The notes beneath the pieces are model-generated. The model saw only the letters and a program-made list of their open reading frames with translations, was not told where the DNA came from and did not search any database. Below, in pieces: positions 9,362 to 64,000 of a stretch of DNA of 64,000 bases. The position numbers and the translations under genes were made by a program. The stretch spans positions 186,001 through 250,000 of the forward strand of contig JAVXUO010001871.1 in the NCBI GenBank assembly GCA_033065855.1, given 5' to 3'. Source of the stretch: Escallonia rubra. Lineage: Eukaryota > Streptophyta > Magnoliopsida > Escalloniales > Escalloniaceae. Every line of letters starts with the position of its first letter. Positions within the stretch are counted from its first letter, which is position 1.

Positions 9362-12300
9362 TGTTATGGCCAAAAATTGATTGGGAACGAATGAGCGTCG
9401 GTTGGGACCAAACGAACACGTGAGCAGACCTGAGAAGCACAACACGAGCATACGGTGTCCTGCCAGGGCCTCCGAAAGGTGTTCCGGCGGGGAGTCTCTA
9501 ATGCTTAAATCAGAAATATTAAAGAAAGCATGCAGGGAGCGAAGATTAGAGAATATACGAGTGTATTAGATATTGTGAACCCACCTTTCTCTTGTCCTTA
9601 GACTCCTTTATATAGGAGTGTATTAAATAGTAAGTTACCTTCTCTTTAATGGGCGGTTAGCGGACATAATAGGTAGTTACCACTCTTAATGGGAGAGTGG
9701 GAGAGTGGGGGAGTGCCACTTCCCACTACTCCAGGAATGGTGGAATGGTTTCAAGGTCCCTGGAGTACTTTTCTTGACCAAGTGGCATGTATTTTTCTTG
9801 TCGCCCTCCCAAGAGGCATGAATTTTTTACCCATATCATTTGCCCCCCCATTCCATGTTCTTTTTTAGAAAGAATGTAGAAGCAGAATAGTTGTCTTAGC
9901 ATCGGGATTTGGACAACATCCTTCGTTCAATGGCAGAGTGGAAAAACATTTGGTTTGTTTCTTGACCAAGTGAATGAAGATTTGAAGGCTTAAAGAGTTT
10001 GTTTAATCGGCCAGACGAGTAGAGAGTGTACCTTTTAAAAGGACGTTCGTCTGCTCGGCTGGATGAGCAGATGAGTAGTGGCTGCTCATCTGCTCGGCTA
10101 GACGACCAGAGAACAATGATTGAGCTCTCCTGCTCGGCTAGACGAGTATGGAGCAATGGTTGAGCAAAACAGAGCTCGTCTGCTCGGTCTGGCGAATAGA
10201 TAAATTTTGGGTGCCTTAAGGAGCTCGTCTGCTGGGTCAGATGAGCAGAGAGACTGTCGGCCCTAAGGAACTCGTCTGCTTGGTATGGCGAGCAGAGAAA
10301 CTTTTAAAGGCCTAAAGGAGCTTGTTTGCACGTTCTTAACGAGTAGAGAGACTTTAGAGGCCTAAAGGAACTCGTTTGCTCGGTCTGGCCAGCAAAGAGA
10401 GCTCGTCTGCTCGATCTGGTAAGCAGAGAGACTTTGAGAGGCCTAAAGGAGCTCGTCTGCTCGGTCTGGCGAGCATAGGCTTTGATAGGCCTAAGGAGCT
10501 TGTCGTTTGGTCTGGTGAGCAGAGACTGAGGGGCTCTAAGGAACTCTTCTGCTTGATCTGGCGAGCAAAGAGAGCTCGTCTGCTCGATCTGGTAAGCAGA
10601 GAGACTTTAAGAGGCCTAAAGGAGCTCGTCTGCTCGGTCAAGTAAACAGAGGCTTTGAGGGGCTTAAGGAGCTCGTCTGTAGGGTCTGGCAAGCAGAGAG
10701 GCTCTAATGTGCTCATCTGCTCAGCCTGGCGAGCAGAGGCTTAAAGGCTTTAAAGGTGCTCGTCTACTCGGCTTGACGAGCATAGGGACTGAGAGACTCT
10801 AATGTTCTCGTCTGCTCGACCTAGCGTGGAGAGGCTTAGAGGCTCTGATGTGCTCGTCTGCTTAACTTGGCGAGCAAAGGCTTAGAGGCTCTAAAGGTGC
10901 TCGTCTGTTTGGCTTGGCAAGCAAAAAGACTGAGAAACTCTAATGTTCTCGTCTGCTCGGCCTAGCGAGCAGAGGTTTAGAGGCTCTAAAGGTGCTCGTC
11001 TGCTCGGCTTGGCGAGTAGAAAAACTGAGACATTCTAATGTGCTCGTATGCTTGGCCTGACAAGTAGAGGCTTAAAGGCTCTAAAGGTGCTCGTCTGCTA
11101 GGCTTGGCAAGTAGAGGCTTATAGGCTCTAAAGTTGGTCGTCTGCTCGACTTGGAGAGCAAAGAGACTAATAGGCTCTAATGTGCTAGTCTGCTTGACCT
11201 GGCAAGCAGAGTCTTGGAGGCTCTAAAGGTGCTCGTCTACTTAGCCTGGTGAGCAGAGAGACTGAGATGATCTAATGTGCTCATTTGCTCACCCTGGAGA
11301 GCAGAGGTTAGAGGCTCTAAAGGTGCTCGTCTGCTCGGGTTAGAGAGCAAAAAGATTGAGAGGCAAATATGCTTGCTTGCTCAGCCTGACGAGCAGAGGC
11401 TTTACAGGTGTTCGTATGCTCGTCTTCACGAGTAGAGAGACTGAGAGGCTCTAATATGCTCGTTTGCTCAGTCTGGTGGGCAGAGAGGGAGCAGTCCATC
11501 GGGGCTCTAAAGGTGCTCATATGTTCAGCTTGGTGAGCAGAGAGATAGAGACTCTTATGTGCTCATCTGCTCGACCTGGTGAGCAGAGGCTTATAGGCTC
11601 TAAAGGAGCTAGGTTCAGAAAATAGGGAGTTAGGAATTCAAAAGACCTCTACTCAGTCTGACGAGCAAAGCGGTAGGATTTCGTCATAGCTCTTCTACTC
11701 AGTTTAACGAGCAATGAGCTAGGAATCTGAAGGATCTCTGCTCGCCTGACGAGCAGAGGGTAGGAGTTCATCGCAACTCTTTCACTCGGTCTGGCAAGCA
11801 ATGAGCAAGGAATCCAAAGGATCTCAACTCGATCTGATGAGCCAATAGGTAGGAATATGAAAGATAGTGTGTACTCTGCGAGGTTTACATGACTCCTCTA
11901 GAAAGAAGTATGTGGCTCGCGATGGAGGCTTATGTAACTCCTTGACGAGGGAGTGCGAGTACTCAACAGGACTAAGGTTTAGGGGACTCCATGGAAGGGA
12001 GTGCGTATGCTAGGCCATATCGAGGCTTTAGCAACTGCTTGTAGAAAGGAGCATGGGTGCTCGGCTAGATCAGCACAAATATTGTCTGTAAAGGGGGCAC
12101 CGAATGATGACTGATGCTGTGAAGTTGAGCTTCTTAAAATGTCGGTCATGAGAGCGGCTAGAGCACAATTGAGGCAGTGATGAGTGAGCCTCGTAATATC
12201 TCTTCTTAGGCCATTTATTCCTGGAATGACGATGTTACTCATCGTTTAGAAAAAGTGATGTGGCCATTGCAAAGGTCTTGGCCATTCTTCTGATGCACAA

Positions 12301-12546: not shown

Positions 12547-12619
<73 letters not shown>
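12547..12619. repeat. (AT)n microsatellite, left of MITE
   Basis: This is 73 bp of pure AT dinucleotide, ending exactly at the MITE terminus. Confidence 0.98.
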
Positions 12620-12622
<3 letters not shown>

Positions 12623-12921
12623 AGCTGATCCATTGCTCGCGCAAGCAAATGGGGCTGAGTTGGTTGTGCAATCTGGCTGTCCACGCGTGAGATGTGGACG
12701 GGCCAGATCTCGTCGTCCTCTACATTATGTAGCGGACGGTACCATCCGCTAGATTATGTAGTAGACGATATTATTGTCAACAGTAGCGTCCGCTACATTA
12801 TGTAGCAGACGACGAAAAAAAGCGTAACAAAAATATCTGGACCATCCACAGATGGCTCGTGGACGGCCAGATCGCACTGGCAACTTAACCCAATTTGCCC
12901 GCACGAGCAATAGATCGGCTC

Positions 12922-12923
<2 letters not shown>
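12620..12923. mobile_element. 304-bp MITE inserted in (TA)n, related to the large MULE at 55212
   Basis: The left end GGGAGCTGATC and the inverted right end GGGAGCCGATC start a diverged TIR of about 70 bp. Each end contains a subterminal hairpin (CTGGC...GTCCAC with GTGGAC...GGCCAG). The interior carries palindromes with arms GTCCGCTACA and TGTAGCGGAC. Both sides are (AT)n, so it inserted into a dinucleotide repeat. The terminal GGGAGCTGATC, the GATCTGGCCGTCCA stretch and the palindrome are all shared with the element starting at 55212, which encodes a transposase. It has no coding capacity of its own. Confidence 0.9.

Positions 12924-12965
<42 letters not shown>
12924..12965. repeat. (AT)n microsatellite, right of MITE
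   Basis: This is 42 bp of AT dinucleotide starting exactly at the MITE right end. Confidence 0.98.

Positions 12966-55134: not shown

Positions 55135-55211
<77 letters not shown>
55135..55211. repeat. (TA)n microsatellite at the MULE insertion site
   Basis: This is 77 bp of pure TA dinucleotide ending exactly where the MULE terminus GGGAGCTGATC begins, as at the MITE in 12547-12965. Confidence 0.98.
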
Positions 55212-55213
<2 letters not shown>

Positions 55214-55266
55214 GAGCTGATCCCTTGACAGCGCTGGCAAAATAGGAGATCTTGCCAGCGCGATCT

Positions 55267-55295
55267 GGCCGTCCATCCCTTCGGGATGGACGGCC
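55267..55295. repeat. Perfect subterminal hairpin
   Basis: Arms GGCCGTCCATCCC and GGGATGGACGGCC enclose a 3-base loop. The MITE at 12620 has weaker hairpins in the same subterminal position at both of its ends. Confidence 0.9.
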
Positions 55296-55325
55296 CATAT
55301 CACTTTTTTTTTGCGGCGCTGTCAG

Positions 55326-55562
55326 TCGTCCGCTACACTGTGTAGCGGACGGATCTTTTTACCATCTTGCCCTCGCTCACCCGTCCGCTAGACTGTGTAG
55401 CGGACGACATTCTTGGGCCCACATCGTCCGACAAAAAGTAGTCCGCTACACTGTCCAGCGGATGACTATCACAACTATGTAATTCTGACACAATTGTGAC
55501 TTGTCTGACACAAGTGTGACTTGTTGTCGGCAATTCTGTCCGCTACACAGTATAGCGGACAG
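55326..55562. repeat. Palindrome cluster 1, upstream of the transposase
   Basis: Four sites lie at about 55328, 55381, 55440 and 55537. The first is almost a perfect palindrome, with 11-base arms GTCCGCTACAC and GTGTAGCGGAC around one base. They lie between the terminus and the transposase 5' untranslated region, where a regulator or the transposase could bind. Confidence 0.9.
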
Positions 55563-55719
55563 TATTGCCCATCCCCAAAACCTACTCAATTTTCTTTCAG
55601 CACAATTTTCTTCTACTCAATTTTCTTTCAGCACAATTTTCTTCTCCTTCGGACTCACTTCCATTTTCAGCTGCCTTCAAGCTTCGAGTAACACTTGCTT
55701 CAAGCTTCGCTCAAGCAAG

Positions 55720-56091
55720 GTAAGTTTGCTTCAAGTTTTCTTGATGTTCTAGAAATTTGTCACTGTATTCATCAATTTGTGATTTTATACTCTAGATTTT
55801 TTGTGATGTTCTAGACATGATGTTCATCAAAAAGGTATAATTTGTTAACTTTATATTTAATTCATTATAGTTTAATTCGATTTTTTGGCATGATGAATTC
55901 GTCTATTTATCTTACTAATTTAAATTTTTTATGTTCAATAAATTAATAATTGTTAATTTGGAGACACTTTTGAGATTATGCATACCGTATGTTTGTCATC
56001 CTAAATTGGTCTATTCGCCAAGGTAATTTTTAGGTAATATTTTCAGTTAGAAATGCTATTTGATTGTTAAGCGTAGTCTATTTCTACACAG
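55720..56091 (+). other. Intron in the transposase 5' untranslated region
   Basis: A consensus donor AAG|GTAAGTTTG at 55720 and an acceptor TTTCTACACAG ending at 56091 bound 372 bp, with AT-rich sequence between. It would leave the transposase ATG 13 bases into the next exon. This is predicted from motifs only. Confidence 0.6.
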
Positions 56092-56104
56092 CTCTTGTTT
56101 CACA

Positions 56105-58402
56105 ATGTCTGATTTCGTGTCGAGCTCCAACGTCCCCGTAGATGCTAGTGATCCGTATCTAGGACGAACATTTGCTACGTTGGAAGAAGCTGAAGAATGT
56201 TTTCGAGCGTATTCATTGAGGGTTGGTTTTGGCATTAGAATAAAGACTTCAAGAACGAGCACCATAACGAGAAAGATATGCTCTCGCTTTTACGAGTGCC
56301 ATAGGAGCAGAAACCCAGTGCAAAATGAGACACGCGTAGGCAATGATGACAGTGATGACGAAATAGGATATCCGCGTAGAAGACGGGACTGCTTTGAGCG
56401 CACAAATTGCCAGGTCAAGATGTTCGTAAGCTACAAACCCAATCAAGACCATTGGCTTATTACCAGCCTAGAACTGGCACATAATCACCCGTTAGTAACC
56501 CCTTCTAAGGTGAGTCAGATGCATCAACACAAGAAGATGGGTAAGGTCGCAAGGAGCCTGATTCAGACAATGAGCAATGCGCGACTAGGACCTACCGACA
56601 TGATTAATGTTCTTGCTGAACAGGCTGGGGGAATTCAAAATTTGACCTTTAACACGACAGACGTTCGTAACGCGGTCCGAACCCATAGACGAGCCGCGTA
56701 TGACCTCAATGATGCTCAAGCCACAATGAGCCTATTGAAACGGATGCAGATGGAGGACCCGCAGTTGACCTTCGATTATAAACTTGACGACGAGCATCGA
56801 GTTAGCACAATTTTTTGGGTCGACGGTCGTTCGAGGCTTGCTTATAAGCATTTTGGGGATGTCGTGACGTTCGACACCACATACCGTACCAACAAGTACT
56901 CGATGCCGTTCGCCCCTTTCACGGGGGTCAATCATCATTATCACTCCATCCTGTTTGGGTCCGCCTTGTTAAGGGACGAGACCGAGAGTTCTTTTGAATG
57001 GTTGTTTAGGACGTGGCTGGAAGCAATGAACTTCAAAGCACCCAAAGTGATCATCACCGATCAAGATTTGGCAATGAAGAAGGCTATTGCGACCGTCTTC
57101 CCAGACACTCGGCACAACTTGTGCACCTGGCACATAAGCAACAAATACCCGGAACGGCTGCATCACGTGTACTCAAAGTATCCAGACTTTAAACAGGATT
57201 TTGACAAGTGCGTCCTCAAGTCGTTAACGATTGAGGAATTCGAGGAGAGGTGGGAAAAGCTTGTTCGGGATTACTCATTGCAAGACAACGAGTGGCTCCA
57301 GCACTTGTACGAGCGCAAAGAGCAATGGATTGGCGTTTACACGAGGAGGTATTTTTCAGCGGGCATGAAAATGACGGGCAGGAGTGAATCCATGAATGCC
57401 ACGTTCGATAGTTATGTGGGTACAGCTACCAATTTGAAGACTTTCGTTGCATCCGCACAAAAAGCGGTAGCTTCGTTGTTCGTAAAAGAAAGGGCTGCCG
57501 ACTTTGCAACAACGTACAAACAAAGGAGAACATTGCTCGAGACCCCGCTGGAGTTGAACGGTGCCAAAGTCTATACGAAGGAGATCTTCTTGCTATACCA
57601 AGTAGAGCTGCGAAAATTCGGACGATACAGTATAAACAAGGTGGCAGAAATGTCTACGCGTGAGTACAAGGTTTATTCGCTCGTGAATGACCTCGTCCTT
57701 GAGAAGCTGCGCAGAATGTATACGGTGAGCCACGACACATTGACGGACTCGGTGACATGTGTTTGCAAGAAGTTTGAGTTCCATGGCATCCTGTGTAGAC
57801 ACGTTCTGCGGTTTTTCACCCAGAAGAATATCAGGACAATCCCCGATAAATACGTCTTGCCACGGTGGACAAAAGGTGCAAACAGGTTGCACGGTACCAT
57901 TTCCTTTCCGGAGCACCCGTATACTGACTTTGAAGAATCAGAGACGTTGCGGTATAATCATCTGGTGACGATGTTCACCCGTTTGTCCGTAAAGGGTGCT
58001 GCTACAATGGTCGGTTATAAACATCTCCTCGAGGTAGCTCAGCAACAAGAGCCCATCGTCGACCAGTTGGAAGCAGCTTCAGTCACCAATGCGATTGACA
58101 CCGAGCCTACGACGGGGGTATCAGAAGATGACGAGCCGGAGGAGGAAGACGACAATGATATCCGTTTGTTGGATCCAATTATATCGCAAACGAAATGCCG
58201 CAAGAGATCTATGCGGATGAAAAGCTCTATTGAAACGGCAACTCAACCTAAAAAGCTGCGAAGGTGTGCATTGTGCAACAAAATGACCGACCACGACAAG
58301 TGGAACCATTACAAGGCACTGGGGATAAGTTCAGGGGGTTTGCAAGACGGGGAAGAAGGTGACGCCAAAGATGAGGACGAACAAGCTGCAGTGGACCTTT
58401 AA
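56105..58402 (+). CDS. FAR1/Jittery-type Mutator transposase, intact
   Basis: This 765-residue protein should cut and join the element ends. I chose ATG 56105 (MSDFVSSSNVPVDASDPYLG); the upstream in-frame codons have no ATG. A FAR1-type DNA-binding region is at about 15-125 (FATLEEAEECFRAYSLRVGF, then SRFYECHRS, CQVKMFV and LELAHNHPL). The MULE catalytic core is at about 235-390, with acidic residues in VVTFDTTYRTNKY and VIITDQDLAMKKAI, the CxxH in NLCTWHISNKY, and a likely third acidic residue in EEFEERWEKL. A SWIM zinc finger is at about 550-570 (CVCKKFEFHGILCRHV), and a C-terminal CALCNKMTDHDKWNHY resembles another zinc site. The frame is open. FHY3/FAR1 host regulators descend from this lineage, but TIR-like ends and element-specific repeats favour a transposon gene. 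Confidence 0.93.
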   Translation: MSDFVSSSNVPVDASDPYLGRTFATLEEAEECFRAYSLRVGFGIRIKTSRTSTITRKICSRFYECHRSRNPVQNETRVGNDDSDDEIGYPRRRRDCFERTNCQVKMFVSYKPNQDHWLITSLELAHNHPLVTPSKVSQMHQHKKMGKVARSLIQTMSNARLGPTDMINVLAEQAGGIQNLTFNTTDVRNAVRTHRRAAYDLNDAQATMSLLKRMQMEDPQLTFDYKLDDEHRVSTIFWVDGRSRLAYKHFGDVVTFDTTYRTNKYSMPFAPFTGVNHHYHSILFGSALLRDETESSFEWLFRTWLEAMNFKAPKVIITDQDLAMKKAIATVFPDTRHNLCTWHISNKYPERLHHVYSKYPDFKQDFDKCVLKSLTIEEFEERWEKLVRDYSLQDNEWLQHLYERKEQWIGVYTRRYFSAGMKMTGRSESMNATFDSYVGTATNLKTFVASAQKAVASLFVKERAADFATTYKQRRTLLETPLELNGAKVYTKEIFLLYQVELRKFGRYSINKVAEMSTREYKVYSLVNDLVLEKLRRMYTVSHDTLTDSVTCVCKKFEFHGILCRHVLRFFTQKNIRTIPDKYVLPRWTKGANRLHGTISFPEHPYTDFEESETLRYNHLVTMFTRLSVKGAATMVGYKHLLEVAQQQEPIVDQLEAASVTNAIDTEPTTGVSEDDEPEEEDDNDIRLLDPIISQTKCRKRSMRMKSSIETATQPKKLRRCALCNKMTDHDKWNHYKALGISSGGLQDGEEGDAKDEDEQAAVDL

Positions 58403-58539
58403 TTTTTTGTACAACTTTATGACATTTGTAATAATTTTCGGAGGGATAATTTTTCGACCGAGTACTGGAATTTTTTAAAAATGGACCTATGAGAGGCCAT
58501 CGAATCAAATCTAAAGTCTTTATTTCAATTTTTTTTAAG

Positions 58540-58790
58540 CCCCGTCCGCTATACAATGTAGCAGACGTCATCGACTTTTGGTCTTTTACGTCCGCTATAT
58601 TGTATAGCGGAGAGGTGGCATCGAAGTAAAACTTTTGGTCTTTTTACGTCCGCTATACAATGTAGCGGACGTCACAGCAGGCAAACTTTTGGTCTTCTTT
58701 AATGTCCGCTATATAATATAGCGGACGTCATCGCAGTAAAACTTTTGGTCTTCTTTTACGTCCGCTATACAATGTAGCGGATAAGTCTAT
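58540..58790. repeat. Palindrome cluster 2, between transposase and B3
   Basis: Five copies of the GTCCGCTATACAATGTAGCG type motif occur at about 58547, 58590, 58648, 58702 and 58760, separated by a spacer containing ACTTTTGGTCTT(C/T)TTT. They lie in the transposase 3' flank and the B3 promoter region. Confidence 0.92.
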
Positions 58791-58959
58791 ATGATATATA
58801 TTAATCATATCGGGCAATCGGCTGTTATCAGTCCTATCTGGAGGGCATTCTCTCTGTCTCGAACATCTAGCCCAGGCCACTACTCCATCTCCGGCGACCC
58901 ACATCTCCGGTGACCCACAACTCCGGCGATAAACCGTCCCCCCCTCAACGCCGACCTCG

Positions 58960-59430
58960 ATGGCTTCTGGATCGGAGACCACCTACGATTTTATTGGCAA
59001 CTTGCACCTGGCAGGCAAACACTTTTTCAAAGTCATGATGCCGGGGTTTGAGAATGAACTTGTATGCCATCCCTCTATCTCTGTATTTTCGTGTGTTAAA
59101 GGTTTGATCTTTTGGTTAAAAACTAACCTATTTTTTGTGTATTGTGTTTGTTAGGACATACTGGAAGCCTTGACCAATCAATTTACAACAATTCATGACA
59201 GTGCAAGATTATATAGCCGCAAGGAGGCATGGTAGGTTGAAATCAAGCTGAAGCCCGGCCGACCCCAAAAAAAGCAATTCGCAGAGGGTTGGAACGTCTT
59301 CGTGCGCCAGCATGGCCTCGAACTCGGGGACTTTGTAGTGTTTGAACACCTTGGGTGGTGGGATTTTCAAGTTGTAATCTTTGATCGGAGCACTTGTGAA
59401 AAAATTTCTTTCCCCCAATGTGAACCCTAA
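58960..59430 (+). pseudogene. B3-domain DNA-binding protein with one in-frame stop
   Basis: Two exons (58960-59061 and 59155-59430) are joined by a 93-bp phase-0 intron with GTATGC and TTTGTTAG borders. They encode 125 residues that make up almost only a REM-type B3 domain: HFFKVMMPGFENEL, ALTNQFTTIH, VEIKLKPGRPQKKQFAEGWN, VFVRQHGLELGDFVVFEHLG, and a final VVIFDRSTCEKISF. B3 domains are plant-specific sequence-specific DNA binders. A TAG at 59233-59235 falls in the loop between strands (EAW-stop-VEIK) where a single residue is expected. Apart from that the frame is clean. It sits 557 bp after the transposase, same strand, between palindrome cluster 2 and the main array. Confidence 0.88.
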
Positions 59431-59568
59431 TTTATTATTAATAAAATAATTTGTGTTCTTGTTGATTGTGTTTCGAAATTTTTCCTCGCTTAATTGTGCT
59501 TAATTGTGTCGTTTAAGATTCCCTCGATATATTGAGATCGTTGATTGTGAATCGTACGTTAATTGCAG

Positions 59569-60785
59569 AAACTGATTTTACGTCCGCCATACAATGTAGC
59601 GGACGGCATAGCAGAAACTCATTTTACGTCCGCTATACAATGTAGAGGACGGCGCAGCAGAAACTCCACCCATCAACACTTAGAAAAATTTGGTCTTCAT
59701 TTTACGTCCGCCATACAATGTAGCGGACGGCGCAGCAGAAACTCCACCCATCAACACTTAGAAAATTTTGGTCTTCATTTTACGTCCGCCATACAATGTA
59801 GCGGACGGCGCAGCAGAAACTCCACCCATCAACACTTAGAAAATTTTGGTCTTCATTTTATGTCCGCTATACAATGTAGCGGACGGCATAGCAGAAACTC
59901 ATTTTACGTCCGCTATACAATGTAGCGGACGGCGCAGCAGAAACTCCACCCATCAACACTTAGAAAAATTTGGTCTTCATTTTACGTCCGCCATACAATG
60001 TAGCGGACGGCGCAGCAGAAACTCCACCCATCAACACTTAGAAAAATTTGGTCTTCATTTTACGTCCGCCATACAATGTAGCGGACGGCGCAGCAGAAAC
60101 TCCACCCATCAACACTTAGAAAAATTTGGTCTTCATTTTATGTCCGCTATACAATGTAGCGGACGGCATAGCAGAAACTCATTTTACGTCCGCTATGCAA
60201 TGTAGCGGACGGCGCAGCAGAAACTCCACCCATCAACACTTAGAAAAATTTGGTCTTCATTTTACGTCCGCCATACAATGTAGCGGACGGCGCAGCAGAA
60301 ACTCTACCCATCAACACTTAGAAAAATTTGGTCTTCATTTTATGTCCGCTATACAATGTAGCGGACGGCATAGCAGAAACTCATTTTACGTCCGCTATAC
60401 AATGTAGCGGACGGCGCAGCAGAAACTCCACCCATCAACACTTAGAAAAATTTGGTCTTCATTTTACGTCCGCCATACAATGTAGCGGACGGCGCAGCAG
60501 AAACTCCACCCATCAACACTTAGAAAAATTTGGTCTTCATTTTATGTCCGCTATACAATGTAGCGGACGGCATAGCAGAAACTCATTTTACGTCCGCTAT
60601 ACAATGTAGCGGACGGCGCAGCAGAAACTCCACCCATCAACACTTAGAAAAATTTGGTCTTCATTTTACGTCCGCCATACAATGTAGCGGACGGCACAGC
60701 AGAAACTCCACCCATCAACACTTAGAAAAATTCTCTACCTACATTTGTCCGCTACATTGTATAGCGGACGGCACAGCAGAAAGAC
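59569..60785. repeat. Higher-order tandem array of the MULE palindrome
   Basis: About 18 copies of a 25-bp motif (arms CGTCCGCTA and TAGCGGACG around TACAATG; many units have CGCCA in the left arm) are embedded in two unit types, 78 bp and 46 bp. Units are ordered 46+78+78 (202 bp) or 46+78+78+78 (280 bp): the 46-bp unit recurs at 59856, 60136, 60338 and 60540. The copies are nearly identical, so the array was amplified or homogenised recently. It fills the spacer between the 3' ends of the B3 and PMD-ULP1 genes. Frames in it are artefacts. Confidence 0.97.
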
Positions 60786-60966
60786 TAAACTTCACTACTT
60801 AGAAATTTTTTGCACCATTTCGTTTTCCACATTTCAATCATTCCCAATGAGGCCAAAAAACCAACAACTTTCATCAATCAATCAGTAATCGACAACAGAA
60901 ATCAACACAAATCAAATCACACCAATGGCGTACGGTTTATGTAAAAAATACTGTTATGATACAATT

Positions 60967-63900
60967 TCAACTGGGGTCTGCATGTTGGGGCGGATTCTCG
61001 TCATTAGCCGGATTTTTTATAAACCTAACCGCTCTAGGCCGGCCTTTCATAATTTGCCAAGCTATTCTATATCTATAGGCTTCAACTTCTGCTTGGCTCC
61101 AGACGGCCGCCTTGAGGCTCTCAGAGCGACAAATGAAATCCATGTACATGCAAAGGAAGACGCCGCAGTCCGAAGTGTTACGTTGCTTGGGCCTTCTCTT
61201 CTTCAATCGCCTATCGAGATTTGGCCGCGCCGGTACGGGGACATCACGGACACGATTGACCATTGCACAAAAAATATTCTGCGAGAAACAGAAAATGGCG
61301 TAAGACACGAGTTAAAATTTATGGCAAGATAGAATCAGAGCATTATACAGCGATCGTAATATTACCAATGAGTCCAACTGGGCTCTGTACATCTGCAGCA
61401 CAGGCATCTGATGAGTATCGTCGTGGAGACTGTCGATCACCGATACGACTTTACTTGTTGGGGAGTAGCAAACCAAGTACCAGTGGCTTTGCCCTAGAAA
61501 TGGGATTAGAAACACATTGGCAACACTTGCGCTCACCGGACTATCCCTATTAAGATACGCTCGTAGGTTAACGGACGGTCTCCACTGGGCCAACTTTTTC
61601 TTCCCCCTATTTTCGACCCACTCCTGCCATTCAGACACTAGGATGCCATGAAAAAAGGCATCGAACAAAAAAACGGCCGGATAGGTCGGCTGCTGCCGAC
61701 ACCTTTCCTTCAGAATCTCCACGTAGGTGGAGACGACACCGTTGTCTAACCAACTCCCCGGAGCCAGGGAGGCCAGTTCTCCTCACGAGCAACTGTAATC
61801 CATGCCCTCCGGATGATCCACACTATACAACGCTTGGTCATGCGGGTAGCCGCTAAAATGACGCTCTCTGATTATCTGGCATTTCTGCGGCTTTAGGGGC
61901 TTCAACGGATGCCCTTTGCGATATTGCCCTCGGGGGTCGACCGGGGGGTATTGCACTCCTTCGGGGGGGTCGACGGGGGGATATTGCACTCCTTCGGGGG
62001 GGTCGACGGGGGGATATTGCACTCCTTCAGGGGGGTCAACGGGGGGGTATTGCCTGCCTTCGGCAATAGATGGTCCTGCCCACGGGACAATGGGCAGACT
62101 GATGTTTCCGAAACCCCAGTCTTGCGTGACTTGACTCTGAGATAGGGGTTGGGGTTCCGAATCCAATAGTAAAGAGAAGGAGGGCGCACTGTAATCTTCC
62201 CACGGCGCTTGAGCCTGGCCCATGGTGCTTGGCGGTCCCCAATCACCACCCATCTCCGGTACATAGGGAAAACCATATCCCTGGCTCACTCCCGAAGTCT
62301 GTCCCGAGGGATCGGTGCATCCCTCGGGAACAAACGGCCGCTGCCACCCCGGATAACCCATTCCCGGGTTTGGCTGTCCCGATGCTTGCCGTAAAAAATT
62401 CCCACAGCCATTAGCCAAAGCTTCAGCCTGTTGGCAAAGCTCCTCGCCCATGGCATCCACCAAATCCTTCCGCTCGCTCAACTTCTGGAAGAAGGCGAAC
62501 GAGGCATTAACCTACATCCAGAAAGATAATAAATAAGTAACTTCGTACACACTTAGAATGATCAAGTTCAATTAGAAGCACTGGTTGGGCAACTTACCAG
62601 ATTGTATGCCATGTGCTCATCGATCTGACCCCTAGGGTGGTACTTCTCCCCGCGTTCAAACCTTACTGGAGCTACTCTCCTCCGGGTGATGCGGTAGTAC
62701 CACTCATTGTACTGTTCGATGCTGATGACGGGGTCAGGCTCCGACACAATGGCCGCCAGCGTGTCCTGCCAGGAATTCCAGACCTCAATTTCACGCGCGC
62801 ACAACTCGTGCGCATTCGCCCTGCCAAACAGTCCGACACCCGGTGGGTTCCTGTTAAGCCTCATATCTGGCGCGCCGACTGGCAACCCCTGCAGGCAGTC
62901 AAAATGGCGCATAGCGCGATCTGGCAGCTGCCACTCTGCGACCTCGAAGTGGATCAGGGGTGTGCGTTGCAACCCGGAGAGCGTGAAGACGAACGACTCT
63001 CCCACCCGTCGTGCCAAATGTTTGTACGGTGCCCATCGCATCTGGCCAGGAGATAACGAGTCGAGCTCCCCCCGATAGTATGAAATGTTGTGATGGGGAT
63101 CGTCTCTCCTCTCGTAGTGGGTTTCCTTCCGGCTGTACTCCCAGGCGCACAACCGAGGCCACACATTATCTGTTCCGTCCCTACGCCTGGGTGCGCCGGT
63201 AGCAAGGTGTTCATAAGACCACACCTGAGAGCAAAGACATTAAAAAAAGTATCGTCAACATTTATTGTCCATTCAACAAAAAAAAAACAACAAAGAGCAC
63301 GTAATGAAGAATTGTATGATATACCTGCAATAGCGAGAGACATGCACATATCGCTTTGGAGTCTGGCCTCGTTGCCTTGTGCAATGCTCGGTACAGGTAT
63401 GCAAGAGTTGCTGCACCCCAGGCATAATCCCCAACCTCAGCCAGGTTACGCAAAAACGGTAAATATTTGACGCTGACCGTGTTCTTCGACGTCGTTGGGA
63501 ATAATATTGCCCCCATCACCCACCAGAGGAAGGCTTGTGTGTACAGCACAAGGTCATGGCCCGAATAGTTTTCTGGCAAAACCCCTTAGGTATCTACCAA
63601 CCACTTCAACTTGATACCACTACTGCTAAATCCATCCTGGGGTATCGAAGTAAAGAAGTTCCTAGCGGTCCTCTTATTCGTTGCTTCGGACGGATGAGCT
63701 ATTACCGGCCGCCCCGTCACCGGTAACCCTAAGATGAACCCTACATCTTCTAGGGTAATTGTCATCTCTCCGAGAGGGAAGTGAAACGTATTCATTTCAC
63801 TTCTCCACCTTTCAACAAGGGCACCTATTAAGTGCCGGTCAAGTTGTTGAAAGATCTGCCCATGCGTGAAAATCCCAAACCCAATCCCACGCAGTAATCT

Positions 63901-63972
63901 TTTCTGGGTTCTGTTCAATTTCTAGGCGTTGAAATTATCGCTTACTTCTACCGTGTTGACAAGTGCTCTTTC
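60967..63972 (-). pseudogene. Plant mobile domain-ULP1 cysteine protease fusion, spliced, three in-frame stops
   Basis: Four exons (63972-63325, 63224-62598, 62511-61366, 61278-60967) are joined by three phase-0 introns of 100, 86 and 87 bp with GT/AG borders; upstream exons lie outside the window. Exons one and two encode a plant mobile domain (GIGFGIFTHGQIFQQLDRHL, IGALVERWRSEMNTFHFPLG, YLPFLRNLAEVGDYAWGAAT, then WQLPDRAMRHFDCLQGLP). Exon three encodes a Pro/Gly-rich linker with four PPVDPPEGVQY-type repeats, then a C48 protease start (LASLAPGSWLDNGVVSTYVE). The catalytic set is complete: His in GQSHWYLVCY, Asp in VIDSL, Gln and Cys in QRNTSDCGVFLC. Stops are TAG 63922-63924, TAA 63586-63588 and TGA 61783-61785; no frameshift was seen. 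It converges on B3 with the array between them. Confidence 0.87.
61940..62050 (-). repeat. Coding minisatellite in the PMD-ULP1 linker
   Basis: A 33-bp unit encoding PPVDPPEGVQY occurs about four times, with few substitutions, between the PMD-linker and the protease domain. Such a repeat can change copy number without a frameshift. Confidence 0.9.
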
Positions 63973-64000
63973 CTACGAATTAATAAATATTATTTAAGCA

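Follow-up and report, generated by a model that had tools for sequence, protein, structure and literature searches.

The element described here is a high-copy MULE with terminal inverted repeats (TIRs) that resides in TA microsatellites and carries a set of three genes, coding for a FAR1-type transposase, a B3-domain protein and a plant mobile domain (PMD) fused to a ULP1 protease. It lies in a window of 64,000 nucleotides of Escallonia rubra (contig JAVXUO010001871.1, positions 186,001-250,000, forward strand), whose numbering is used throughout. The best explanation overall, with a probability of about 0.6, is that the PMD-ULP1 protein docks on an array of palindromes within the element and that its SUMO protease counteracts silencing, the B3 protein being a second reader. 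The idea of a self-protecting three-gene MULE, raised in the initial annotation, is strongly but indirectly supported by the combination of a PMD with the VANC21 fold, a fused protease with all SENP-type catalytic residues and an adjacent array whose motif varies from one subfamily to another. The palindrome, which these proteins may recognise, is present in thousands of copies. The element may be another case of transposon self-defence against host silencing.

The element extends from 55212 to 64875, its right end being outside the window. The left TIR, about 100 bp long (55212..55314, plus strand; 103 bp up to the fifth mismatch), adjoins a (TA)n microsatellite target of 38.5 units (55135..55211), as had been read from the left end alone. 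The inverted partner that was to be sought on the right ends at 64875, with the first 30 bp perfectly matched and (TA)n alongside, beyond all three genes. Both TIRs were found in 14 full-length copies; every left end and all but one of the right ends (13 of 14) lie within runs of TA repeats, some of them interrupted. Since insertions occur in (TA)n, the target site duplication of 8-11 bp cannot be told from the surrounding repeat. The MULE DDE transposase domain and the TIRs place the element in the Mutator superfamily.

The search gave 790 candidates and 40 scored places, from which 18 copies were taken whole and 17 analysed (the window copy and 16 others); C3065 was left out (1,800 N, no TIR found), and eight 3.3-kb pieces (L001-L008) stand outside this analysis. 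Three of the 17 (C2062, C1259 and C2300) miss one clear matching end, the match of C2300 ending 58 bp short of its right end. A second subfamily is represented by two copies taken from 72 scored places: C183, whose right end was read to within 7 nt of the expected end, and C3170, compared without its left part, which includes the transposase. The linkage of the B3 and PMD-ULP1 genes to the same transposase, on which the initial annotation made its proposal depend, recurs in all 17 copies, each with complete, intron-bearing B3 and PMD-ULP1 genes, and also in the divergent C183. A homologous pair with 41-45% identity, apparently linked, is present on a foreign contig of 7,311 bases.

The transposase (56105..58402, plus strand; 765 aa) is intact in the window copy, as predicted, and has the FAR1-MULE-SWIM arrangement, with a MULE DDE domain (PF10551) at E 3e-32. 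Its catalytic D, D and E are kept in 17, 16 and 17 of the 17 copies, respectively. Among private changes of the transposase, 107 of 158 are C to T or G to A, an excess expected of methylated copies. The predicted B3 gene proves to consist of two plus-strand exons (58960..59061 and 59155..59432), coding for a single-domain protein of 125 aa. A single stop, at codon 61, interrupts the frame of the window copy; 14 of the 17 copies are open. The Pfam B3 profile scores 37.8 bits against a cut-off of 30.1 for the protein of an open copy; the fold model of P0144 was too poor to use.

The convergent PMD-ULP1 gene, also anticipated, occupies five minus-strand exons from 64162 to 60967, with three in-frame stops in the window copy. 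Exon 1 (64079-64162) lies outside the window; exons 2 (63325..63972, two of the stops) and 3 (62598..63224) code for the first and the second half of the PMD, respectively, exon 4 (61366..62511, one stop) for a linker and the first half of the ULP1 domain with the catalytic His and Asp, and exon 5 (60967..61278) for the catalytic Gln and Cys. The Pfam PMD profile (PF10536) scores 246 bits against a cut-off of 34.9, and the C48 (ULP1/SENP) domain 45.5 bits against 20.7. Alignment to SENP2 reveals all SENP-type catalytic residues (His, Asp, Gln and Cys), which are kept in 17 of 17 copies. In fold, the PMD matches VANC21, an anti-silencing protein that is encoded by a transposon and binds DNA in a sequence-specific way; at the sequence level, VANC21 is not found by the PMD profile. 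DUF1985 remains far below its cut-off in three of the PMD proteins or pieces scanned (E 0.046-0.16) and is not among the matches listed for the open 938-aa PMD-ULP1 protein. Host MAIN/MAIL proteins also bear PMDs, so a VANC-like fold alone is no proof of anti-silencing.

Between subfamilies, the dN/dS of the PMD is 0.25-0.28, well below 1. A comparison of the two copies of subfamily 2 yields larger values (PMD 0.56, linker 0.77, ULP1 0.63), and the ULP1 domain of C183 has four stops. Within the window's subfamily, the ratio among shared variants is 0.30 for the transposase, 0.45 for the PMD and 0.87 for both the linker and ULP1, with no significant constraint among these variants (Fisher p at least 0.17 in each of five tests). 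The B3 gene is too short for a firm selection test: its shared variants within the window's subfamily comprise three nonsynonymous, one stop and no synonymous, and the comparison with C183 gives four nonsynonymous and four synonymous changes (p 0.057). The PMD-ULP1 frame is fully open in only one copy and broken in 16 of 17. Over the 17 copies it has accumulated 47 lesions per 15,946 codons, about twice the rates of the transposase (18 per 13,022) and of B3 (3 per 2,142), which are alike; the projection of frames omitted insertions that the window copy lacks, so that stops within these are uncounted.

The palindrome that had been noticed around and between the genes is found, with up to three mismatches allowed, at 30 places in the window (60 matches on the two strands) and at none in shuffled sequences. 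Twenty-seven of these places are in the element and three in a MITE of 304 bp (12620..12923) with (TA)n on both sides. The element's sites form several groups. Four subterminal sites (55329..55559), with a core that is mostly TACACxGTxTA, are mirrored by four at about 64529-64759, outside the window; five sites with the commonest core TATACAATGTA separate the transposase from B3 (58545..58781); and where the B3 and PMD-ULP1 genes face each other with their 3′ ends, near-perfect palindromes of 21 bp form a tandem array (59583..60768), with 18 sites in the window copy and a number that varies among copies. Palindromes occur at both ends in all nine full-length copies listed, and 14 copies have 58 left and 56 right end sites, whose motifs mostly form a class of their own. 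Subfamilies differ in the array motif but are more similar in the left half of the element. The C3170-type core TATACTATATA also occurs in 3 of 182 window-type array sites, and the correspondence between array and PMD-ULP1 is drawn from two subfamily-2 copies. In 72.6 kb of flanking DNA, 20 sites lie outside the elements, and each of them falls within a related end or immediately internal to one; 12 are in a relative of 1,929 bp that adjoins copy C1806, and 8 adjoin related ends at C1440 and C2409.

The proposed mechanism brings these features together. The PMD, as a VANC-fold domain, most likely docks on the adjacent palindrome array in the noncoding DNA of the element and would thereby recruit the fused SUMO protease to the chromatin of the element; removal of SUMO or related marks there would counteract host silencing in this family only. 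Such a model would parallel VANC and its Ulp1-bearing KIU relatives, as reported for VANDAL elements. Another palindrome class is most likely read by the B3 protein, acting in transcription or in help to the transposase, which the end palindromes most likely serve. We infer all three of the pairing of protein with palindrome, SUMO as the substrate and anti-silencing as the outcome.

The palindromes could instead serve transposition and transcription, being bound chiefly by B3 or by the FAR1 domain of the transposase; PMD-ULP1 would then not read the array but act elsewhere, for instance on host factors that carry SUMO. Their presence at both ends of full-length copies, the mostly separate class of end motifs and their retention in related non-autonomous elements (the MITE at 12620 and the flank sites in related ends) speak for this possibility, which is nevertheless rather unlikely, as the largest array is internal, between B3 and PMD-ULP1, is variable in number and differs in motif between subfamilies, and as the PMD is folded like a protein that binds DNA. 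Read-through transcripts of the palindromes might also fold into hairpins and give rise to small RNAs, the arrays then being where the host silences the element. The near-perfect tandem repetition, the prevalence of C to T and G to A among private changes, as in methylated copies, and the targeting of VANDAL21 noncoding regions by RdDM, described in the available part of one report (PMC10398659), are consistent with this view. The outer arms (TCCGC...GCGGA), however, are kept as sequence across array sites. Of the five inner pairs, three show complementarity in no more than a third of distinct array sites (33%, 23% and 3%), the other two in 100% and 97%; a protein site fits somewhat better, and hairpins as the main explanation appear very improbable. 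The hairpin and anti-silencing readings are compatible, and both can hold.

It is also conceivable that the element merely captured B3 and PMD-ULP1, by transduplication in the manner of Pack-MULEs, and that they do nothing for it. Capture of gene fragments by MULEs is frequent according to the portions of two reports consulted (PMC2528002, PMC13317346), the PMD-ULP1 frame is broken in nearly all copies and constraint within the subfamily is not significant. Against this stand the completeness of both genes in all copies analysed, the low dN/dS of the PMD between subfamilies, the conserved catalytic residues, the apparently linked pair on the foreign contig and the like lesion rates per codon of transposase and B3, that of PMD-ULP1 being about twice as high; the passenger hypothesis is very unlikely. 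A broader interpretation, held tentatively and at slightly under even odds, is that a TIR-MULE lineage outside VANDAL possesses its own VANC-type anti-silencing, in which a PMD-SUMO protease reads arrays that change along with it, B3 is a second reader and the PMD belongs to the superfamily of host MAIN/MAIL. Since this family of domains is also found in those host proteins of silencing, the factors with which plants silence and those with which transposons oppose silencing would then represent branches of a single superfamily of DNA-binding proteins.

If true, this would add a case of sequence-specific anti-silencing, in a MULE that has TIRs and its own SUMO-type protease, with subfamilies that differ in reader and array and with about 13,000 sites on which the idea could be examined. 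With the domain of MAIN/MAIL1 tied to the VANC fold, the question of the role of the PMD becomes testable as DNA binding. The lineage of the source plant is distant from that of the Arabidopsis host of VANDAL elements.

The VANDAL elements of Arabidopsis have been demonstrated to counter silencing in a sequence-specific manner, as described in the parts available of two reports (PMC5735166, PMC10398659). VANDAL21 (Hiun) encodes a VANC with DUF1985 where the present element has a Pfam PMD, and its motif is YAGTATTAY rather than a 21-bp palindrome; the descriptions available to us mention no B3 protein. As a group, VANDALs have TIRs that are absent or short and degenerate, some members having TIRs (PMC6446971, accessible text), whereas those of the present element are about 100 bp long. 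Kaonashi elements and other MULEs carrying KIU resemble it in that they encode a VANC-type protein that includes an Ulp1 domain (PMC13317346), with the ULP domain opposite in direction to the transposase gene (PMC2528002), but in the excerpts seen they are called non-TIR elements of the Vandal group, while the present one has TIRs, encodes a transposase of the FAR1 type and carries both a PMD and a B3 gene. MULE-borne PMDs are known from the PMD-C proteins of grasses and Amborella, for which the authors suggested anti-silencing (PMC5418596, in the part available); there the PMD is fused to the transposase, whereas here it is fused to ULP1 in a separate gene. Two Vitis proteins with PMD and MULE domains (P0021 and P0023) have PMDs of another clade. 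In the open-licence literature, nothing was found joining Mutator-like elements with a B3 domain and ULP1, nor on a plant mobile domain with Ulp1, nor on a B3 domain captured with a Mutator-like transposase.

TA flanks and short relatives in the same type of site place the element with TA-microsatellite-targeting MULEs (SaTar, MuTAnT). As far as the available passages go (PMC5907723, PMC4486113), SaTar MULEs and AutoMuTAnT likewise occur with short derivatives in (TA)n, often adjacent, and the AutoMuTAnT transposase is Jittery-like; the autonomous AutoMuTAnT (4.9 kb, a single transposase ORF) and AgS-MULE1 (5.3 kb) differ in that these descriptions mention no B3, PMD or ULP1. The right end of the MITE in the window is 70% identical, over 142 bp, to the left end of the big element.

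The TIR MULE that begins at position 55212 of the window combines a transposase, a B3 gene and a fusion of a plant mobile domain (PMD, PF10536) with a SUMO-protease-like ULP1 domain (Peptidase_C48). The items of the initial annotation, namely the transposase, the B3 gene, the convergent PMD-protease gene and the repeated palindrome, were all recovered on re-analysis. The transposase frame, with FAR1, MULE and SWIM domains, lies on the forward strand (56105-58402); the two-exon B3 gene is located 3′ of it on the same strand (58960-59061 and 59155-59432), and beyond B3 the five-exon PMD-ULP1 gene runs on the opposite strand from 64162 to 60967. The right TIR, sought beyond the window, occurs 875 bp past its edge, hence all three genes are contained in an element that ends at 64875 and measures 9,664 bp. 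This end repeats the first 30 bp in inverted orientation without a mismatch and abuts (TA)n. In-frame stops are present in the window copy, one in B3 and three in PMD-ULP1.

That B3 and PMD-ULP1 belong with this transposase had been proposed from a single copy. The window's own assembly (566 Mb, 3,222 contigs, the window being C2417:186001-250000) was searched with a 271-bp intergenic probe, giving 790 first-look candidates, of which 40 places were scored, with best matches of 93-100% identity at each. Among the 17 copies analysed from the 18 of 40 scored places that were fetched (the window's own included), the linkage is universal and the gene order unchanged. Both TIRs are found in 14 of the 17, with lengths from 8,855 to 9,982 bp, and TA-repeat runs, some of them interrupted, hold all 14 left ends and 13 of the 14 right ends of these full-length copies. 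B3 splice sites are kept in 17/17 copies and canonical PMD-ULP1 exon borders in 14/17, the exceptions being the copies on contigs C1806, C2409 and C1259.

Fully open frames are retained in 8/17 copies for the transposase, 14/17 for B3 and 1/17 for PMD-ULP1. Stops and frameshifts together amount to 18 in 13,022 codons for the transposase, 3 in 2,142 for B3 and 47 in 15,946 for PMD-ULP1. These lesions are mostly private to single copies; shared ones affect B3 codon 61 (two copies), transposase codon 719 (two) and PMD-ULP1 codon 933 (four). This is most simply explained if the copies descend from ancestors with three open genes and decayed once inserted. Private changes are mostly C-to-T or G-to-A transitions (107/158 in the transposase, 174/312 in PMD-ULP1), an excess expected of methylated copies. 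CpG is not depleted, the observed/expected ratio being 1.02 in the window element versus 0.63 elsewhere in the window; it is 1.01-1.08 across the 14 full-length copies, despite the methylation-type spectrum of their private mutations. When the genome was queried separately with an E. herrerae B3 protein, 1,389 candidates emerged, of which 150 places were scored; among the matches listed, open frames are 91 or 97 aa long, and the single stop (in rare cases two) that each match contains is interpreted as the end of the intron.

A search with the E. rubra PMD protein P0002 uncovered a divergent subfamily: of 5,570 first-look candidates 72 were scored, and two of these places, C183 and C3170, were fetched. 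C183 has a left TIR in (TA)n, a full transposase (92-93% aa identity), B3 (97%) and PMD-ULP1, in a sequence read up to 7 nt before the expected right end. C3170 was read without the transposase part. Its B3, of which 82 codons were within reach, has one stop and is identical at the rest; exon 4 of its PMD-ULP1 forms a single 410-aa open frame running from linker sequence into ULP1, and its right TIR lies in (AT)n. DNA identity of these copies to the window element is 84-98% in the transposase-B3 half versus 68-82% in the PMD-ULP1 half; the two halves may differ in evolutionary rate or undergo recombination, perhaps through exchange of halves between subfamilies. A segment of ~1.5 kb between B3 and the palindrome array is common to C183 and C3170, with no match found in the window element. 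The C3170 segment carries a 153-aa open frame (fetched piece L038, element orientation, from about 1364 downward, minus strand), and the 60 residues of it searched gave no Pfam match. Elsewhere, at C1974:100527-101789, a PMD match covers aa 26-455 of P0002 unbroken by the usual intron and with five stops; the copy may have been processed or rearranged.

With up to three mismatches, the palindrome TCCGCTAYANNRTRTAGCGGA is found at 30 places in the window; 27 of them lie in the element and three in a small relative, and dinucleotide shuffles yielded none. Searched exactly, the genome yields 13,267 forward and 13,281 reverse matches, which mostly coincide because the pattern is near-palindromic; the pattern read backwards has no exact match. 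In the 14 full-length copies three sets of palindromes can be told apart: each end bears about four, with a core that is mostly TACACxGTxTA; the transposase-B3 interval has about five, among which TATACAATGTA is the commonest core; and an array of variable copy number lies between B3 and PMD-ULP1. The sets share nearly invariant outer arms, TCCGC...GCGGA, and differ in the inner bases. Array cores also differ by subfamily: xATACAATGTA occupies 166/182 window-type sites and TATACTATATA three of the 182, while GATATAGTATA or TATACTATATA is found at 22/23 sites in C3170 and TATATAGTAAA at 7/13 in C183. Four sites in the transposase-B3 interval of C183 retain the window's motif. The flanks (72.6 kb) add 20 sites, in or just inside related ends.

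The one open PMD-ULP1 copy encodes a 938-aa protein whose exons match the locus exactly; its PMD spans residues 71-420 (E 8e-73) and its Peptidase_C48 domain 707-908 (E 1e-11). The PMD matches the fold of VANC21, the anti-silencing DNA-binding protein of Arabidopsis VANDAL21. Alignment of the protease with SENP2 places His, Asp, Gln and Cys in position, and these residues are kept in 17/17 window-type copies and both copies of the second subfamily. In a tree of 23 PMD rows, the element's PMD groups (100/100) with proteins P0001, P0002 and P0003, apart from MAIN-LIKE 2 proteins and two Vitis proteins holding a MULE domain. P0003 (41% identity to this element over 46% of the query) and the best transposase match P0024 (45%) each come from a 7,311-base ENA contig and are very likely neighbours on one contig; at such identities, the PMD-transposase link would date far back.

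Selection was estimated by comparing the open copy of the window's subfamily with C183 and C3170. For these two respectively, dN/dS is 0.25 and 0.28 in the PMD (Fisher p 3e-15 and 4e-15), 0.55 and 0.54 in the linker, and 0.49 and 0.55 in ULP1 (p 4e-5 and 1e-3); the transposase gives 0.21 with C183. B3 shows four nonsynonymous and four synonymous changes against C183 (ratio 0.25, p 0.057) and is unchanged over 81 codons against C3170. Counted against constraint are the ratios between C183 and C3170 (PMD 0.56, linker 0.77, ULP1 0.63) and the four stops in C183 ULP1; within the window's own subfamily no test of constraint is significant.

The best reading of the fusion is a PMD-guided protease that would act at the array against silencing: the PMD would target PMD-ULP1 to the palindromes, and the protease would then remove SUMO required for silencing. 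Observed are the VANC21 fold match, the catalytic residues, the array and the dN/dS ratios; DNA binding, substrate and outcome are inferred. B3 is probably a second DNA-binding factor. According to PMC5735166 and PMC10398659, VANC21 binds a short motif tandemly arrayed in noncoding regions of its own family and causes methylation to be lost there; its targets shift through repeat turnover, and VANC is less conserved than the transposase. In some VANDALs, KIU genes are described as VANC with a captured Ulp1 domain (PMC13317346), and Kaonashi elements as carrying a ULP domain opposite in direction to the transposase gene (PMC2528002). The present element has the same layout built from other parts, in that a SUMO-type protease is joined to a VANC-fold PMD, the gene runs opposite to the transposase, and a tandem array that differs between subfamilies lies beside it.

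In the open-licence literature searched, no TIR MULE with transposase, B3 and PMD-ULP1 was found. Some of its separate features have precedents in the excerpts consulted: SaTar and MuTAnT elements target TA microsatellites, the autonomous ones with a length given being AutoMuTAnT (4.9 kb, one Jittery-like transposase ORF) and AgS-MULE1 (5.3 kb) (PMC4486113, PMC5907723); PMD capture by MULEs is reported as transposase fusions, for which anti-silencing was suggested (PMC5418596); and ULP1 in MULEs was already known (PMC2528002). The element is therefore a variant and not a new kind of element.

Shorter relatives accompany it. A 304-bp non-autonomous MITE (12620-12923, within 12547-12965) has inverted ends, three palindromes and (TA)n on both sides, its right end being 70% identical over 142 bp to the left end of the large element. 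At C1806 (L011/L012), the (TA)n run at the right end of the big element also holds, directly beside it, a 1,929-bp relative carrying 12 palindromes, an arrangement as in SaTar arrays; the relative's ends are similar to those of C183, and the matches listed between it and the window element fall in ends and palindromes. At 10213-11854, the window also contains a large divergent tandem-repeat region with units of ~47 and 95 bp.
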